Positions 302-24,051 of a DNA stretch of 24,077 bases are shown piece after piece. The notes under the pieces were generated by a model that had not been told where the DNA came from, made no database searches, and was given only the letters and a program-made list of their open reading frames with translations. Numbering within the stretch: position 1 is the stretch's first letter; each line of letters opens with the position of its first letter. This stretch comes from Trichomonas tenax. Its lineage: Eukaryota; Parabasalia; Trichomonadida; Trichomonadidae. A program made the position numbers and the translations under genes. The stretch is from positions 1 to 24,077 of the forward strand of contig JALKBU010000802.1 in assembly GCA_023091735.1 (NCBI GenBank), read 5' to 3'.

Positions 302-1816
302 TTACTGCTTTGTATCCGTGAGTCTGCTTGCAATAGTTGACATGCGGGATGGCTGAGAAGAACCGAGCATCGACATTGTTCCAGCCATGTTTGTTGGAGC
401 TCTCCTTCCAAACAATGAGGATTGCATAGCGAGGTTGAATCTAACAATGACTTTACCTGTGCCAATAGTTCTAAGACCGAACTTGTTGTATACAGCGTCG
501 GCACTGAGGGCGCCGAACTTTTCTTCTTCAGTCGCCTCAACAGGCGCCTGCTGCTCGAGGCCGCTGTCTAAGAACATCAATCTAAGTTCCTCGGAAACTC
601 TACCTCTGATTCTCCATACCGGAATATCTATCTCGTGGCAGCCTCTAGACATTGGTAATGGGCACTGCCCATAGCCCTCGACGATTCTAGCACCATCACT
701 TGTGTAGCTATGCAATGTCAGCATCAATGTTGGAGCTGTCTGTGTTTCTGCGCGTGCAACTAAGTCAACTGGTAAGTTGATGGCGCAGACGCCGTTTTCA
801 TCACATAAAGCAAACTGTGAGCATCCAGAAACTGGAATACCGGACTCTTCATTAGCCCAGCCAGCTGGCAGACGGATCTGATACTCAACAGCAACGCCAG
901 GAGCGGAATCCATGATGGCACGAGCGATTTCACCTCTGTAGAACATACGGACTGTTCCTGGTGGATCTGGTGCTTGTGCGAGTGATGAATCGGCCTGACC
1001 TGCCTCGAAAATGGCGCGGCGACGCTTGATGTCTGAGAGTAATGTGTGTTCGAACGGAGTTTCCGCTTCAACGGCATTTTCTATAACATTGAATCTGTAT
1101 CTAACAATTTCGTTTTGATTTGTGAAAAACCTGTATTCGTGATTTGTCTTGTTTGAGAAAGGTGGTCTGACATCAATACGGCCTCCTGGGAAGACTCTAA
1201 TGATACCAAGCAATTCTTCATGAATAGTTCCATTTCTGGATGGAATTGACGCGAAAATATGCATTGATTGTGCATTCATACGAACAACTTCGACCATTTC
1301 TTCGTGGCCATCGCCTTTAAGCACTGCTTCAGCTAATTCATTCGGATCGCGTTCACCAACAGGATTGTAGAATGGAGTATCGATTTCTGATGGATCAATA
1401 TATCTGTCTTCGGCGACTTTCGTGAAAATTTCGTTTCCTATATATGAATCATTTTCTTGTCGGCGTTTCATGATGATGTCATGGTATTTGTTCGCAAGAG
1501 ATGGATTGTCACATATTGGAATACCGCTTATTATGTTTTTAACTTCTGTTGGGGAGAATATTTTTTGTTGCCAGTCAATATCGCACGTAATCTTAACTTC
1601 ATTTGTATCAATGAGGTCCTCGAGTGGTTTTCCGTCATTGTGGTCCTCTTCTTCTGGATTTGCGCTTTCCTTTGGCTCATTTGTTGGCGGAGTCTGAGGA
1701 TTCTCAGGGACACCCATCCTCTGAAGTTCGATACGAATCTTCACGAGGCCTGTGGGATCCTGAGTTCTATGGGTCGCCCAGTCGAGTCTGTTCTCTGTTG
1801 GTTCAAAATCAGTCAT
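302..1816 (-). CDS. MKS1: MKS1-like B9-domain protein of the ciliary transition zone
   Basis: This 504-residue protein matches Meckel syndrome type 1 protein, a B9-domain member of the MKS module that gates the base of cilia and flagella. The B9 domain lies at about residues 288-403: RGEIARA near 294, the VEGYG turn at 379-383 followed by a proline and a Gly-Cys-His stretch, then an IPVWR strand. After it comes a segment with FGLRT at 446-450 and a GTGKV turn, which matches the C-terminal part of animal MKS1 (FGLRTETTGTV) and separates it from B9D1 and B9D2. Length is close to human MKS1 (about 559). The N-terminal 70 residues are acidic and Pro-rich and probably disordered. It starts at the first ATG; stop and poly(A) signal overlap as TAAAT. 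No clear initiator is visible at the ATG. The family call is firm; the cellular role is inferred from the family. Confidence 0.85.
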   Translation of the reverse strand: MTDFEPTENRLDWATHRTQDPTGLVKIRIELQRMGVPENPQTPPTNEPKESANPEEEDHNDGKPLEDLIDTNEVKITCDIDWQQKIFSPTEVKNIISGIPICDNPSLANKYHDIIMKRRQENDSYIGNEIFTKVAEDRYIDPSEIDTPFYNPVGERDPNELAEAVLKGDGHEEMVEVVRMNAQSMHIFASIPSRNGTIHEELLGIIRVFPGGRIDVRPPFSNKTNHEYRFFTNQNEIVRYRFNVIENAVEAETPFEHTLLSDIKRRRAIFEAGQADSSLAQAPDPPGTVRMFYRGEIARAIMDSAPGVAVEYQIRLPAGWANEESGIPVSGCSQFALCDENGVCAINLPVDLVARAETQTAPTLMLTLHSYTSDGARIVEGYGQCPLPMSRGCHEIDIPVWRIRGRVSEELRLMFLDSGLEQQAPVEATEEEKFGALSADAVYNKFGLRTIGTGKVIVRFNLAMQSSLFGRRAPTNMAGTMSMLGSSQPSRMSTIASRLTDTKQ

Positions 1817-2404
1817 TTATTATTTAATAACGTTAATAAATTTTAAACTTTCAAAAAATTTTATTTGGATTTTATTTTAAATTCATTATCATATTAATAA
1901 GTAAATCATTTTGGCTGTTAAAATCGCCTTTTCTTTTTACTTTTTTGATTTCCATTTTCTTCGGCCACCAAAATGTAAATTTTCTTCATTATGTGTGAGA
2001 TAAAAATCTTTATTTATGATATATAACTATACATAACTATTTTTACTATAAATTTATTGGTTAAAAATCTGAAGCTCTATTTTAGAAAGTAAGATATTTC
2101 ATTGTTTTATGCATGGAAATCAGAATTAACTTTTCATGTTTTTTCTCAGTGTTGACATCAATCAATGGCTATATAATATGTTTTTATATGATGCAGAGTT
2201 TATGGTTATCATTTTTGAATGCACATTCATGAAATATCATTAGATATTTAGACATTATTTTTTTCATTTGATACAAATTATCAAACACAGTGATGGTGTT
2301 CACGCGTTTGAGCTTTGAGTAAAGAATTTTCTTGATTGGTGATAAAAAGCATGAAAATATTTAATAACGCTTTCCATTTTATTCAAACAACAAGATTAAT
2401 GGAT
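1817..2404. other. intergenic, AT-rich
   Basis: These 588 bases separate two minus-strand genes and should hold the MKS1 promoter. Short open frames here have no coding character. No RNA gene, repeat or clear initiator was recognised. Confidence 0.5.
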
Positions 2405-3574
2405 TTAACAAATATAACAAAAAGGAAGTCCTCCCTTCTGTTTAAAGTATTCGACAAACTCAGTATTCCCGAAGTTTTGCGCAATTTCAAGAAAGTTCTG
2501 TCCATTGTTAATAACAGACTGTGTGTTTGCGCCGTGATCGACTAAAATTTTGGCTGTATCTATGTTTCCAAGCATAGCAGTGATATTTAATGGTGTGTAG
2601 CCTCTACTGTTCCGTATCTCAGTATCAGCACCATTCTCTACAAGGAGATTTGCCAATAAAACATTGTCCTTGCATGATCGAATGAGTAATGTTTCTTCTT
2701 CTTCTCCAAACTTAGCATTGACATCAGCACCGTTCTTGATCAAGAACCGTATCAACATTAAGTTGTTTGCCTCATACGCGTCTTCAAGAAGCGATGTGGC
2801 AATGAAACTATTCAAACCTCCATTCTTCTGAAGGAAATATGAAAATGCAAGTGTTGAGCATGATGTTACAGACATTGACGCCAACACTATGTTTGGTGTG
2901 TATTCATTGATAAACCATTGCAATATTTCATATCTATGGCACTTAACAGTAGCAAATATCAATGATTCTTGTATTTTTGTAACACTTTGATGAATTTCTT
3001 CACACAATTCAATGTTGCCGCTGATAATTGCACATTCCATTGTGTTGATTGTAGGTTTCATGCCATTCATCTGTAGGAACCTAAATATCTGAGTATTACC
3101 AAGAACTGCGGCAAAATCAAGTAAATTCAATCTGATACCTGTAACTTTATCATATCCGATTATGTCGTAAAATCCTTTCTGTATAGACAACTCTGTCAGC
3201 AAATAGAAATTATCGTCTAATATCGCACGGAGAGGACCTCCTTCTTCGAAAATTTCTTCGTAATCAAACAAATCATCTTTATCACGTATAGAAATTAGAT
3301 ATTTTGTGAACAGAAATCGAGGATCTCCAATGATTTTAAAATTACATTTGATGAAAAATTTAGCAAGTAACATCCATTTAAAGCGAAAAACTTTCGAAAA
3401 CTGTAATACACACGCTCTAACATAGTCTCGTAGCTCTGGTGTTAAACTTTGAACATAATCGATTAATTTTTCCAAGTCAACTTCTGTTAAATTTATGATT
3501 TTCTCTTCTATTTCGTACATTGGCATTAAGTCCGGCGGAATAGTACTCTGGTCAAGATAAAAACTTTCATTCAT
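2405..3574 (-). CDS. ankyrin-repeat protein, trichomonad type
   Basis: A 389-residue protein with the layout of the very large trichomonad ankyrin family. A helical N-terminal half (about 20-200) resembles the DUF3447-type region that precedes ankyrin repeats in these proteins: LLDFAAVLGN near 151, then a CAIISGNIELC helix pair near 181. At least three to four ankyrin repeats follow at about 260-380, with the hallmarks NGADVNAK (281), NGADTEIRN (314), GYTPLNITAMLGN (325) and DHGAN (346). The protein ends soon after the last repeat. The first ATG is used; a GTCACTTTT word lies about 60 bases upstream on the coding strand (3629-3637). Stop reads TAAAT. Partner and role cannot be told from sequence; ankyrin stacks bind other proteins. 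Confidence 0.85.
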   Translation of the reverse strand: MNESFYLDQSTIPPDLMPMYEIEEKIINLTEVDLEKLIDYVQSLTPELRDYVRACVLQFSKVFRFKWMLLAKFFIKCNFKIIGDPRFLFTKYLISIRDKDDLFDYEEIFEEGGPLRAILDDNFYLLTELSIQKGFYDIIGYDKVTGIRLNLLDFAAVLGNTQIFRFLQMNGMKPTINTMECAIISGNIELCEEIHQSVTKIQESLIFATVKCHRYEILQWFINEYTPNIVLASMSVTSCSTLAFSYFLQKNGGLNSFIATSLLEDAYEANNLMLIRFLIKNGADVNAKFGEEEETLLIRSCKDNVLLANLLVENGADTEIRNSRGYTPLNITAMLGNIDTAKILVDHGANTQSVINNGQNFLEIAQNFGNTEFVEYFKQKGGLPFCYIC

Positions 3575-3932
3575 TCAGTCATACAACAAAACAAAAATAA
3601 ATTCGTCGTGTAAAATAAAATTCTTGGCAAAAGTGACGTATTTTGAAAAGTTTACAAAAAGTAACTTTTCTAAAATGATTCACTTTTGTCGAATATTTCA
3701 AATTTTTGTCATGTAATGTTGATTTTTTTGACACTTAATGAAACAATGAGAAATCAAACCAGATGACTTTGAATACATAACGAGCAGTTCTTAAGCTAAC
3801 ATTTGGAAAACAGAAAAGATAAAAATGAAAACAATTTGATGAAATATTAATTCGTTTTATTTACAATTGTAGTGTGATAAATACAAACATTCATATATAA
3901 TGGTGTAATGAGGGGTGATTCTGTTGATAGAT
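3575..3932. other. intergenic with GTCACTTTT motifs in both orientations
   Basis: This is the upstream region of the ankyrin gene. It contains AAAAGTGAC at 3629-3637 (GTCACTTTT on the ankyrin coding strand) and TTCACTTTTGTC near 3678 on the plus strand. The rest is AT-rich with no gene seen. Confidence 0.45.
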
Positions 3933-4938: not shown

Positions 4939-4949
4939 AGTTAGTTATA

Positions 4950-4995
4950 AACATTTTGATAAACTATACCGCTAGGTATAGTTTATCAAAATGTT
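4950..4995. repeat. perfect palindromic hairpin, 21-bp arms, 4-nt loop
   Basis: The left arm 4950-4970 and right arm 4975-4995 are perfect reverse complements around the loop GCTA. It begins only 12 bases beyond the end of repeat copy A. As RNA or single-stranded DNA it would fold into an unbroken hairpin. The inverted repeat partner at 9544 has no such palindrome beside it. Confidence 0.9.
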
Positions 4996-5115: not shown

Positions 5116-5496
5116 TTAATTAGTTCTATACCAAGCATACACAGTAATATACGGTGGCATGTAATCTGTGTTTTTAAATTCTGGATTATCATATATGTGA
5201 ATAAATTCATTTTTATCATTAAATAATAATTGAACTGTCCAATTTGATCCAGTATCATCTAACGCTCCTGCTTTAAATCCACCTGAATTAACATCTTGAC
5301 ACATACAATTATGATTATGCTGTGGTAAATTAGCAACAGATATCTTTTTAGAACCACCAGTTTGATTACTACTATTAGCACAATATAAAAATCTATCAAC
5401 GATTTCTGTCCATGTACCAAATCCTAAAGCTATACTAGGATTAGTTCTATTCATAGATGTATAGATAGAACCTTTGACATATAAGGGACACACCAT
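5116..5496 (-). CDS. phage tail-collar / baseplate-like protein
   Basis: A 126-residue protein that resembles the C-terminal collar domain of phage short tail fibres and baseplate proteins. Seen directly: GSIYTSMNRTNP (9-20) followed by GTW (27-29) and DRFLYC (34-39), then GG (47-48), LPQHNH (57-62), and a terminal YMPPYITVYAWYRTN (112-126). The order GSIY...GTW...RF...GG...LPxHxH...PPYxxVYxWxR is the usual collar signature, in which the histidines help bind metal in phage fibres. It starts at an ATG and ends in TAA. A second, truncated relative lies at 23386-23661 inside the element-like region, suggesting an origin in a virus-like mobile element or transfer from a phage. Function in the host is unknown. 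Confidence 0.7.
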   Translation of the reverse strand: MVCPLYVKGSIYTSMNRTNPSIALGFGTWTEIVDRFLYCANSSNQTGGSKKISVANLPQHNHNCMCQDVNSGGFKAGALDDTGSNWTVQLLFNDKNEFIHIYDNPEFKNTDYMPPYITVYAWYRTN

Positions 5497-20898: not shown

Positions 20899-21054
20899 AT
20901 GACAACAAACTATTTAATCCCAAACACGAAACCAATAAATGACAACATGTTTCAATCATTCGAAAAGATTAATGAGGTCTTCGCTAAAAATGATGACAGG
21001 AGATATTATCGAGAACCGGAAAACTCATGTTTTGATAATGATGCCCCCTATGAA
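20899..21054 (+). pseudogene. ORF cut short by hairpin repeat, unknown
   Basis: From ATG 20899 the frame reads 52 coding-like codons (Asn-, Asp- and Tyr-rich: YLIPNTKPINDNMFQSFEKI) and then runs at base 21055 into the repeat that begins GTTAGTAATAAG and carries hairpin 1. The frame stays open to 21120 only by translating the hairpin, so the gene's own C-terminus has been lost. No family recognised. Confidence 0.5.
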
Positions 21055-21064
21055 GTTAGTAATA

Positions 21065-21110
21065 AGATGTTCGCATTCGACATGTCTTCGCCATGTCTCT
21101 GCGAACATCT
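21065..21110. repeat. double-stem hairpin 1
   Basis: Outer stem AGATGTTCGCA / TGCGAACATCT, inner stem GACATG / CATGTC, loop TCTTCGC. 46 nt. A run of T follows. Confidence 0.9.
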
Positions 21111-21298
21111 TTTTATATAATTACCTAAGTTCACGAATTATAAAAACAATATTTATTAATGATATATATTTTACACATCAGAGTTAGTTTTACAAATTAG
21201 GGTCCCCCATATAGAGAATAAATTTTTCGTTTCTTTCAAAATTAACGTTAAAATTAATTTTAAAACTCCTGACTTTATAGAATCTATAGTTAGTAATA

Positions 21299-21345
21299 AG
21301 ATGTTCGCATTCCTCGTGTCTTCGCCACGAGTTCTGCGAACATCT
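21299..21345. repeat. double-stem hairpin 2
   Basis: Same outer stem as hairpin 1; inner stem CTCGTG / CACGAG, loop TCTTCGC. 47 nt, followed by a run of T. Confidence 0.9.
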
Positions 21346-21741
21346 TTTTCTAAAATTCCCGAAATCACAAATTACAAAATGAGTAATTTATTAATGTTAA
21401 TATTTACGATAGAGTTAGTAGTACAAGTTAGGGTCCCCCATATAGAAAATAAAATTTTGAAATTGCTTACAAAATTAACGTTAAAATTGATTTTAAAACT
21501 TATGACTTTATAAAATGAAATCAGTTTTTAAAATAATTTATGACAAACTAACTAACTAACTAAGAAAAGAAAGCGAAAGGAAATGAGGGTAAGGAAATTT
21601 TGAAAATTAATTTTAGTGGTTATGAGAGAAATTTATTCAGAAATTTAAAAAAAAATAATTTATGACAAACTAACTAACTAACTAAGAAAAGAAAGCGAAA
21701 GGAATTTATGAAGTCAGAAATTTGAAAAATAATTTTAGTGG

Positions 21742-22032
21742 TTATTCTGCTTTCTTTTCTTCTTCCTGCTTCTTCTTTTCTTCCTCTTCTTTCTTCTTAG
21801 CTTCTTCTTCCTTCATTCTTTTTGTGATCCACCTCGGATTTTTCTGACGACCTGCAGCAAGTGCTGCTAATTGTTTTTCTGTACACTTACGTTTAGGTTT
21901 AACTTGTTTTTCCTCCGTTGCTCCTGTATCAACTTGTTCATTCTTTTTCGTCTTTCTTGTTTTCTGTGAAGTTTTGAGTTCATGAACACACACACAAATG
22001 AGCCCATCCCGCTGAGCAAGCTCAGCTTCGGG
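21742..22032 (-). pseudogene. Lys/Glu-rich protein with LAALAAGR motif, 5' end lost
   Basis: The frame has no ATG near its start: it opens after a TAG at 22033-22035, reads through a GC-rich hairpin, and becomes coding-like from about HELKTSQKTRKT (near 21984). Then comes CTEKQLAALAAGRQKNPRW, a motif shared by many small basic proteins of large DNA viruses and virus-like elements, and a C-terminal run of about 30 residues of Lys and Glu, probably a helix or charged tail. Stop TAA at 21742-21744 is followed by CCACTAAAATTA. A second copy of the C-terminus sits at the window's right end. It was probably a nucleic-acid-binding element protein; the true N-terminus is missing. Confidence 0.55.
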
Positions 22033-22064
22033 CTAGGATAAATGAGCCCAACCCACTCCGTGGG
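21996..22064. repeat. GC-rich double hairpin after AAATGAGCCCA repeats
   Basis: The word AAATGAGCCCA occurs at 21996-22006 and 22040-22050, each followed by a GC-rich hairpin. The first has outer AGCCC/GGGCT (22001-22005 / 22030-22034) and inner GCTGAGC/GCTCAGC (22011-22017 / 22020-22026). The second has CCCAC/GTGGG (22052-22056 / 22060-22064). It lies at the broken 5' end of the Lys-rich ORF. Confidence 0.75.
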
Positions 22065-22549
22065 TCGGTCTTATTCTTCTTAACCTGATTATATAACGGT
22101 TTTAAATCATTTGTGGAATTAGTTGATGTTTGAATATTGGGCTTCATTAACGTTAAATTTGAGTGAAATCGTTAATTATACTAGGTAACCAGATTACCAG
22201 GTAATACCAGGTAAAAAAAATTTAGGACAAGGATTTTTAGAAATGGCTTAAATCTACGAAAAGTTACTTTTTGGCGTTTATGTTGAAAATTTGATGAAAA
22301 TTAACGAAAAACAGTGATTTAGGGGTAAATCCTATGTGGAAATGAAGAAAAAGGGTTAAAATCGATGAAAAACAGTGATTTAGGGGCAAAAATGAAAGTG
22401 CACCGTGTGGATTTATTTTAAAATAAGTCACTTTTCAAAATTTGAGGATTTGCGGGAGTAAATAAGCAAAATTTGAGGATTTCCTGGAGTAAATTAGGGG
22501 TTGAAAAAGTGCACCGAGTGCACCGGGTCAAAAAAGTATAAAAAAAGGG
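22065..22549. repeat. non-coding stretch with short direct repeats
   Basis: No gene seen. GAAAAACAGTGATTTAGGGG occurs at 22306-22325 and 22367-22386 (61-base step). GTGCACCG occurs three times between 22397 and 22526. A 22-base word at 22273-22294 recurs exactly at 22681-22702. A small hairpin GGTAA/TTACC lies near 22186-22200 with a repeated CCAGGTAA. Confidence 0.7.
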
Positions 22550-22750
22550 TGACAACATGACATTTTGACAACATTTTATCGACAACAGGGGATAAATTGA
22601 CATTTTCGTATTAGAAACAGTTGGTTTGTTTGTAAAATCGAGTGAATTCATGAATTTTGATGTCAAGATGAGGATTTAGGGGCGTTTATGTTGAAAATTT
22701 GAGGATTTACGGTCATTTATACCGTTTGTTGTCAAAATGTCATGTTGTCA
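22550..22750. repeat. 201-bp unit bounded by 24-bp perfect inverted repeats
   Basis: 22550-22573 and 22727-22750 are exact reverse complements (TGACAACATGACATTTTGAC at the outer left end). The 153-base interior has no ORF. Size and structure fit a MITE or a long stem-loop; no target-site duplication is evident. Confidence 0.8.
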
Positions 22751-22791
22751 ATGTTTTCCATAACTCTTTATTGCACCTGGAGTTAGTAATA

Positions 22792-22838
22792 AGATGTTCG
22801 CACCCCTCGAGTCTTCGCCTCGAGTTCTGCGAACATCT
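22792..22838. repeat. double-stem hairpin 3
   Basis: Same outer stem as hairpin 1; inner stem CTCGAG / CTCGAG, loop TCTTCGC. 47 nt, followed by a run of T. Confidence 0.9.
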
Positions 22839-23180
22839 TTTTAAATAATTACCGAACTCACAAATTACAAAACGAGTAATTTATTAATACTAATATTTAC
22901 GATAGAGTTAGTTTTACAAGTTAGGGTCCCCCATATAGAAAATAAATTTTTGAATTTCTTACAAATTAACGTTAATTTTATTTTGGAATTTCTGACTTTA
23001 TAAAATGAAATCAGTTTTGAAAATAATTTATGACAAACTAACTAACTAAGAAAAGAAAGCTAAAGGATTTGGGGGTAAGGAAATTTTGAAAATTAATTTT
23101 AGTGGTTATGTGAGAAAATGTAATCAGTTTTGAAAATAATTTATGACAAACTAACTAACTAACTAAGAAAAGAAAGCGAA

Positions 23181-23206
23181 GGGCTTCGCCCACGCCCCAA
23201 AGGGCA
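23181..23206. mobile_element. 26-nt GC-rich double-hairpin insertion
   Basis: In the tandem unit here, AAAGAAAGCGAA and AGGAATTTATG are separated by 26 bases forming two hairpins, GGGC-TTC-GCCC and GCCC-caaa-GGGC. The sister unit near 21700 has the same flanks joined directly. This is what a short inserted double-hairpin element, or its clean loss from the other copy, would look like. Confidence 0.6.
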
Positions 23207-23385
23207 AGGAATTTATGAAATCAGTTTTTGAAAAATTAATTTTAGTGGTTATGAGAAAAACTTATTCAGAAATTTAAAAAATAATTTATGACTAACTAAC
23301 TAACTAAGAAAAGAAAGCGAAAAGAAATGAGGATAAGGAAATTTATGAGTTCAGTTTTTGAAAAATAATTTCAAAATAAACTTAT

Positions 23386-23661
23386 TTAATAAACCCTATA
23401 CCACGTGTAAACAGTAATGTAAGGAGGCATGTAATCAGTACCTGAACCAGTGTCGGCAGTGTTTCCGTAAACTGAATGAATGTGACTTCCTGCATGATCA
23501 ATGATTAAACCCGTGTTGTATTCTCTGGGATCTGATGAAATATCATATCGTGAAATTGTTTCTTTTCCTCCGTTACCACATCCGTAATAACCTCTATTAC
23601 TGATTAAATGAGTATGAGCTCCTGCTAATGATGTTGTACCCGAAAAGTAGTGATTGTGAGT
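23386..23661 (-). pseudogene. C-terminal fragment of a phage tail-collar-like protein
   Basis: 92 codons on the minus strand, from the edge of repeat block 3 to TAA (in TAAAT). It reads THNHYFSGTTSLAGAHTHLI, a GNGGKETISRY stretch, a HAGSHIHSVYG loop and ends DYMPPYITVYTWYRVY. The His-rich loops and the PPYITVYxWYR end match the protein at 5116-5496, but the middle differs, so the two are homologues and not recent copies. Upstream it is broken at 23660 by the GTTAGTAAT start of a repeat with hairpin 4; the N-terminal part (GSIY...GTW region) is not in the window. Confidence 0.7.
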
Positions 23662-24051
23662 TAGTAATTAGATGTTCGCATTCGTCACGACTGCGCCGTG
23701 ACTTCTGCGAACATCTATTTAAATATATATTTACAGAATTAGTTTTACAAGTTAGGGTCCCCCCATATAGAAAATAAATTTTTGAATTACTTACAAAACT
23801 AACGTTAATTTTATTTTGGAATTCCTGACTTTATAAAATGTATTCAGTTTTGAAAATAATTTATGACTAACTAAAAAAAGAAAGCGAAAGGATTTGGGAG
23901 GTAAGAAATTTTGAAAAATAATTTTAGTGAAAATGAGAGAAAATTTATTCAGAAATTAGAAAAAATAATTTATGACAAACTAACTAACTAACTAAGAAAA
24001 GATAGCGAAAGGATTTGGGAGGTAAGAAATTTTGAAAAATAATTTTAGTGG
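23660..24051. repeat. repeat block 3 (hairpin unit plus tandem units)
   Basis: It begins GTTAGTAATTAG with hairpin 4, then a shorter AT-rich part, GGGTCCCCCCATATAG (one extra C), GACTTTATA and two tandem units near 23858 and 23968. It ends at the stop codon of the second Lys-rich gene copy. Confidence 0.85.
23670..23716. repeat. double-stem hairpin 4
   Basis: Same outer stem as hairpin 1; inner stem GTCACG / CGTGAC and loop ACTGCGC, the most different of the four. 47 nt. Confidence 0.9.

Follow-up and report, generated by a model that had tools for sequence, protein, structure and literature searches.

The DNA examined here (the window) comprises positions 1–24077 of contig C1312 (JALKBU010000802.1) in the 53.4-Mb Trichomonas tenax assembly, and its right-hand part carries four hairpins that lie at the ends of integrated elements. 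Other labels beginning with C likewise denote contigs of this assembly, and L-numbers denote fetched loci. An initial annotation of the window had placed hairpins at 21065, 21299, 22792 and 23670, with a shared 11-bp outer stem, perfectly paired 6-bp inner stems of differing sequence and a 7-nucleotide (nt) loop, TCTTCGC in three copies and ACTGCGC in one. All four were located at these positions, and their stems and loops are as described. Each folds better than every one of 200 dinucleotide shuffles (z -7.5, -9.5, -8.0 and -6.7, respectively). The three letters between the two stems are incompletely paired in the window copies, whereas they are fully paired in 27 of 92 copies elsewhere. Directly before each of the four hairpins stands AGTTAGTAATW, and the shorter motif AGTTAGTWAT is found 5 times in the window against 0.10 expected, with a hairpin after all 5. 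The outer stem of the fifth hairpin has other letters, and a second outer-stem family exists in the genome (see below), so that the constancy originally proposed for this stem holds for the four window copies and not genome-wide.

The same arrangement recurs across the genome. The pattern AGATGTTCGCA gave 287 + 295 matches, compared with 10 + 7 for its reversed control, and GCA-N9-WCTKCGC-N9-TGCGAA gave 94 + 76 matches, compared with 0 + 0. A loose search of the fetched loci returned 121 stretches, of which 105 had the 11-nt terminus immediately before the hairpin. These 105 copies were read with their flanks from listings of about 100 places each and form neither a complete set nor a random sample, most having been selected by stem or loop letters. 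Their terminus was AGTTAGTAAT followed by A, T or G in 93 cases and differed from this by one or two changes in the other 12. It was present in 104 of 104 stretches with at most two outer-stem mismatches and in one with more; the 16 stretches that lacked it all had at least three such mismatches and were dropped from the counts. Maverick/Polinton element ends are known to begin with 5'-AG, as do 102 of the 105 termini, the remaining three beginning with AT, TG and AC. Beyond the terminus the flanks appear unrelated by eye, except in four copies (L016, L087, L112 and L115) that follow the same AT-rich last 12 nt (AAAAATAATTTT), a sequence resembling the element's own subterminal repeat. In all 61 copies on L059–L118 the element side is turned toward the closer end of the contig, as is expected where a long repeat of many copies breaks the assembly. 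The hairpins are placed at element ends, at a point 11 nt inside the terminus, and their shape, loop form and near-constant length are kept in most copies. Most copies also keep TTCGCA beside the core and a loop of the form CTNCGC, partly through the choice of search pattern.

Element ends with other stem letters were also found. A second outer stem, AACATTTCGCA, had 36 matches compared with 0 in the control; 15 of the 16 that were read form a hairpin spanning the stretch, the exception being L131. AACATTTTG follows the terminus in 10 matches, 7 of which were read. The pattern AGTTAGTWATNAACATTTTG does not define a single family, as L133–L137 resemble variants of the AACATTTCGCA group, and only the window copy at 4939 and L138 have a different stem. 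The window features are listed in Table 1.

Table 1. Element ends, terminal hairpins and associated genes in the window
Feature	Position	Strand	Remarks
Element terminus AGTTAGTTATA, fifth element end	4939..4949	+	
Terminal hairpin of fifth end, 46 nt	4950..4995	+	other letters: perfect 21-bp stem, GCTA loop
Tail-collar-like open reading frame (ORF; PF21939)	5116..5496	-	just inside fifth end; C-terminus faces hairpin
Element terminus AGTTAGTAATA, copy 1	21054..21064	+	within an ORF of unknown function beginning at 20901
Terminal hairpin copy 1, 46 nt	21065..21110	+	
Element terminus, copy 2	21288..21298	+	234 nt inside copy 1
Terminal hairpin copy 2, 47 nt	21299..21345	+	
Lysine-rich element gene, fragment	21742..21993	-	85% over 53 residues to L051 3540-3887; no Pfam family
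Element terminus, copy 3	22781..22791	+	
Terminal hairpin copy 3, 47 nt	22792..22838	+	
Tail-collar-like gene, C-terminal piece severed by copy 4	23386..23658	-	PF21939, 22.5 bits, under the cut-off of 27
Element terminus AGTTAGTAATT, copy 4	23659..23669	+	
Terminal hairpin copy 4, 47 nt	23670..23716	+	loop ACTGCGC

The genes inside the ends identify the type of element. To examine the tail-collar-like genes (PF21939), 33 domains were hand-picked from 150 genome matches on contigs with known hairpin orientation; 23 of the 33 lie inside a terminus with the C-terminus toward the hairpin, and the distance from domain to hairpin is 137–915 nt. C14 is among the domains that do not show this arrangement. 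Among 120 listed relatives of the collar protein, all 116 that are named are T. vaginalis proteins. At L051, the last gene at the hairpin end is the lysine-rich gene (3540–3887), and a capsid gene lies 1.2 kb inside the element end (minus strand, 1455–3020), where it is split into two ORFs. This capsid ORF has 96% identity to P0121, whose structural model (pLDDT 82) has its best matches among double-jelly-roll capsids, namely those of PBCV-1, grouper iridovirus, mavirus and Sputnik. The family to which the L051 ORF, P0121 and P0123 belong has no Pfam match and includes T. vaginalis "hypothetical proteins" such as TVAGG3_0209670; on the basis of the model, the family is predicted to be a double-jelly-roll major capsid protein. 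Inverted terminal repeats would be expected to place one type of end beside the collar gene as well as beside the lysine-rich and capsid genes, as is the case here. Family B DNA polymerase (PF03175) has 79 matches in the genome, and on C1088 and C1507 PolB is found further inward, behind a collar gene and a terminus; no complete two-ended PolB element was present among those read. An rve-type integrase domain is encoded at C54 6792–7055, between inverted termini at 3336 and 15848. From these data it is concluded that the elements carrying the hairpin ends are Maverick/Polinton-like viruses integrated in the parabasalid genome, which bears out one of the options offered by the initial annotation, a transposition end.

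Several other ORFs were considered. Two that resembled polymerases by eye (L050 3–746 and L049 2461–3327) matched no Pfam family, and the former also matched no PHROG family; the PolB assignment is not based on them. An ORF taken by eye for a tyrosine recombinase (L049 3797–4189) had no match in Pfam or PHROG. A Ulp1-type protease (PF02902) at L051 5198–5683 lies outward of the element end at that locus, and a chromodomain ORF (PF00385, barely above the cut-off) is found in element-rich DNA at L050 8578–9132. In viral contigs, no relatives were found of the end pattern, of the L049 polymerase-like ORF or of a T. vaginalis collar protein. Elsewhere in the window, a SNF7 protein is encoded that has 79% identity to its T. 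vaginalis counterpart, in keeping with a parabasalid host.

Two-ended examples bear on the nature of the element as well. C814 21741–23700 is a 1,960-bp element, apparently non-autonomous (its ends are L133 and L134), in which 75 printed letters are identical at the two inverted ends and CAAT lies outside each. On C54, the inverted termini are 12.5 kb apart and their likeness is confined to the terminus and hairpin. Symmetry of the target site was least bad at a length of 4 bp (p 0.044), with p 0.006 or less for other lengths; a target-site duplication of about 4–6 bp is given in PMC12220804. An apparent 7-bp duplication from pairs of contig ends (7 pairs compared with 0.7 expected) was dropped, since AT-rich flanks and a single odd copy (L107) were the source of the excess. 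At L049 4227–4304, a lone hairpin is flanked by element termini on both sides with nothing else, and has ATAT on either side provided that one end base has changed; it resembles a solo copy left by recombination between two element ends. Two to four element ends in the same orientation per approximately 2.6 kb are seen at window 21054–23716 and also at L041 and L052, and these clusters point to repeated insertion of elements into one another near their ends. Also within the window, 22543–22573 and 22727–22757 are the 31-nt arms of an inverted repeat; they are 90% complementary, lie 153 nt from each other and have GACAACA-like ends, and the repeat is perhaps another small mobile element.

Helitrons are known to have a hairpin near the 3' end only, and this end reads CTRR. 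A hairpin 11 nt from the element end might accordingly be taken for the Helitron structure that halts rolling-circle replication. Here, however, the hairpin of C814 stands at both ends as part of inverted repeats, the terminus read outward is ACTAACT rather than CTRR, and the genes found are of the Maverick type. The Helitron 3' hairpin, a short one about 11 nt from the end, is described as a terminator in PMC6431247; the likeness to it is hardly credible as a sign of common identity.

The pairing of the stems was examined in the 92 copies that are 47 nt long; the 13 of 46 nt were excluded. The six inner pairs are Watson–Crick in 512 of 552 cells, whereas 2000 shuffles of the right arms gave a mean of 343 and a maximum of 392 and slid controls gave at most 227; pairing is retained while letters change, as the initial annotation had stated. 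With each distinct arm pair counted once, the figure is 115 of 138 (shuffle mean 78, maximum 100). The outer stem also varies jointly (989 of 1012 cells, shuffle maximum 967), in copies partly chosen by their outer-stem letters. At the three intervening positions, pairing exceeds the shuffles only weakly (115 of 276; shuffle mean 97, maximum 108), and the excess disappears when each distinct pair is counted once (23 of 45, maximum 25).

An RNA structure under selection at the termini of the element's transcripts, acting as a terminator, a 3' processing signal or a small-RNA precursor, would be in keeping with the stable fold, with the collar and lysine-rich genes being directed toward the hairpin and with the T-run that follows many copies. 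The pairing data do not favour it. G.T cells number 8 and A.C cells 14 (8 and 11 distinct cases), and as G.T is not commoner than A.C, an RNA stem is not indicated. Inverted cores (see below) are tolerated, the hairpin lies beyond the collar domain at the distances given above, and the T-run is on the inner side, where it could act only on transcripts that run into the element. No Rfam family scored above the gathering threshold across the window. A terminator placed behind stop codons was also considered and rejected, because the element terminus itself supplies the TAG TAA TAA that precedes the hairpin. Mimivirus hairpin polyadenylation signals are situated near gene ends and are likewise variable in their letters; the present hairpins, by contrast, lie hundreds of nucleotides past the conserved domain of the last gene and are tied to the element end. 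The RNA options of the initial annotation gained no support from these results, and a function of this kind is improbable.

The initial annotation had taken the joint change of both arms to mean that pairing rather than sequence is kept; the manner of change shows that this alone does not prove selection on pairing. Among 49 distinct cores, the 9-nt arms have 0 mismatches in 12, 1 in 2, 2 in 7, 3 in 20 and 4 in 8, compared with 2.5, 10.7, 17.1, 12.9 and 4.9 cores, respectively, if positions were independent. Where loop and right arm are the same, imperfect and fully perfect left arms are both present in 9 of 21 classes; copying of the arm in the reverse direction is rarer (1 of 42 classes, plus listed cores such as those of C109, C589 and C622). 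Hairpins inverted relative to the element end account for 15 of the 105 copies, and among the 47-mers inversion is found in 8 of 22 with perfect arms compared with 7 of 70 with imperfect arms (Fisher p 0.007). Simple inversion, which had been named as an explanation that would refute the initial reading, thus holds in part. Whole cores also move: among 83 copy pairs whose adjacent 45 nt show 0–1 differences, 22 have 8 or more differences in the 25 core positions, and of 15 cores seen more than once, 7 occur with both kinds of flank (by re-reading). Arm change is therefore not stepwise compensation, and its pattern is that of DNA template switching. In PMC8604942 and PMC8794818, template switching at inverted repeats is described as producing one-step arm homogenisation and spacer inversion, with inversions mostly in perfect repeats. 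Quasi-palindromes of that kind differ from the present case, in which hundreds of copies of one palindrome are fixed at element ends and cores are apparently exchanged between copies. The arms of the hairpin seem to stay matched at least partly through one being copied from the other during DNA copying, and we infer that template switching, together with core exchange through the common outer stem, accounts for much of the covariation.

Hairpin-transfer telomeres of parvoviruses and poxviruses, whose ends fold back to prime synthesis or to close the molecule and change orientation with every replication round, have terminal hairpins with mismatches, and their two orientations are about equally common. 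Both orientations, stem mismatches and arms copied from one another are all found here. The inverted copies, however, are far from half of the total, an 11-nt tail lies outside the hairpin, and the integrated elements encode a PolB of the family described as protein-primed in Polintons; a hairpin-transfer mechanism is therefore very improbable.

The same observations could also be produced by a functionless by-product, that is, by a palindrome close to an ancestral element's end that was kept matched and reshuffled solely by template switching, with no selection on folding. The copies show arm copying, inversion and core exchange, which correspond to the published template-switching products cited above. 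Set against this explanation are the retention of place and approximate length in hairpins with other stem letters (the second outer stem and window 4950–4995) and the retention of the TTCGCA and CTNCGC motifs, with the reservation already made about the search pattern. The constant offset of the hairpin despite different stem letters is the main argument against it, and a by-product is accordingly considered unlikely, although not negligibly so.

The reading that is favoured, and that we hold to be probable, is that these are the subterminal hairpins of the terminal inverted repeats (TIRs) of integrated parabasalid Maverick/Polinton-like viruses, with arms remade by template switching, and that they are kept because the DNA end must fold in order to be recognised. 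One arm would be copied onto the other and the core inverted by template switching, and the shared outer stem would let element ends trade whole cores, so that single events could give rise to covariation. The element end would fold as DNA, either as a cruciform or on the strand that protein-primed replication displaces, and the folded form may be what the integrase, or the polymerase together with its terminal protein, recognises. In such recognition, the shape, the TTCGCA beside the core and the CTNCGC loop would outweigh the letters of the core. A role of the hairpin in replication or integration is what we infer from its conserved position and form.

A number of observations weigh against this reading. 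Partial linkage of core and flank persists, L131 and L138 have no closed outer stem (L138 closes in its inner part only), and the C814 hairpins are shorter, at 29 nt, at both ends. C54 has no clean target-site duplication and the paired contig ends yielded none; those duplications that were seen are of 4 bp, compared with the 6 bp usual for Polintons. A by-product also retains some weight here because a palindrome could be maintained by template switching alone.

The Maverick/Polinton elements of T. vaginalis and other protists, as covered in the accessible parts of PMC10120064, PMC7845603 and PMC12220804, share with these elements the TIRs, PolB, the rve integrase, a parabasalid host, many nested copies and a capsid with T. 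vaginalis relatives; they differ in that no hairpin with an exchangeable core 11 nt inside the end is described in those parts and in that the duplications seen here are of 4 bp. In the openly licensed literature searched, covered mostly through search listings and without the founding Maverick and Polinton papers, no report of such a hairpin at Maverick/Polinton ends was found. Mavericks have been estimated to make up about one-third of the T. vaginalis genome (PMC10120064). The precise end motif and its hairpin provide a simple handle with which to locate element ends in trichomonads and to sort copies. The many copies of a single palindrome also form a natural experiment on template switching, including arm copying, inversion and core exchange, and they carry a caution, namely that covariation among repeats is no proof of a selected RNA.

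We know of no account of how Maverick ends are recognised. A more specific proposal, which is possible but decidedly tentative, is that trichomonad Mavericks have a DNA end recognised by its structure. The hairpin would lie at a fixed offset from each terminus, template switching would carry its core as an exchangeable cassette from one co-replicating element to another, and the end would be read more by its shape than by its sequence. If true, this would amount to hairpin-dependent end recognition, by the terminal protein with PolB or by the integrase, in a lineage of protein-primed viruses, and would provide a bridge linking Polintons to viruses with hairpin telomeres.

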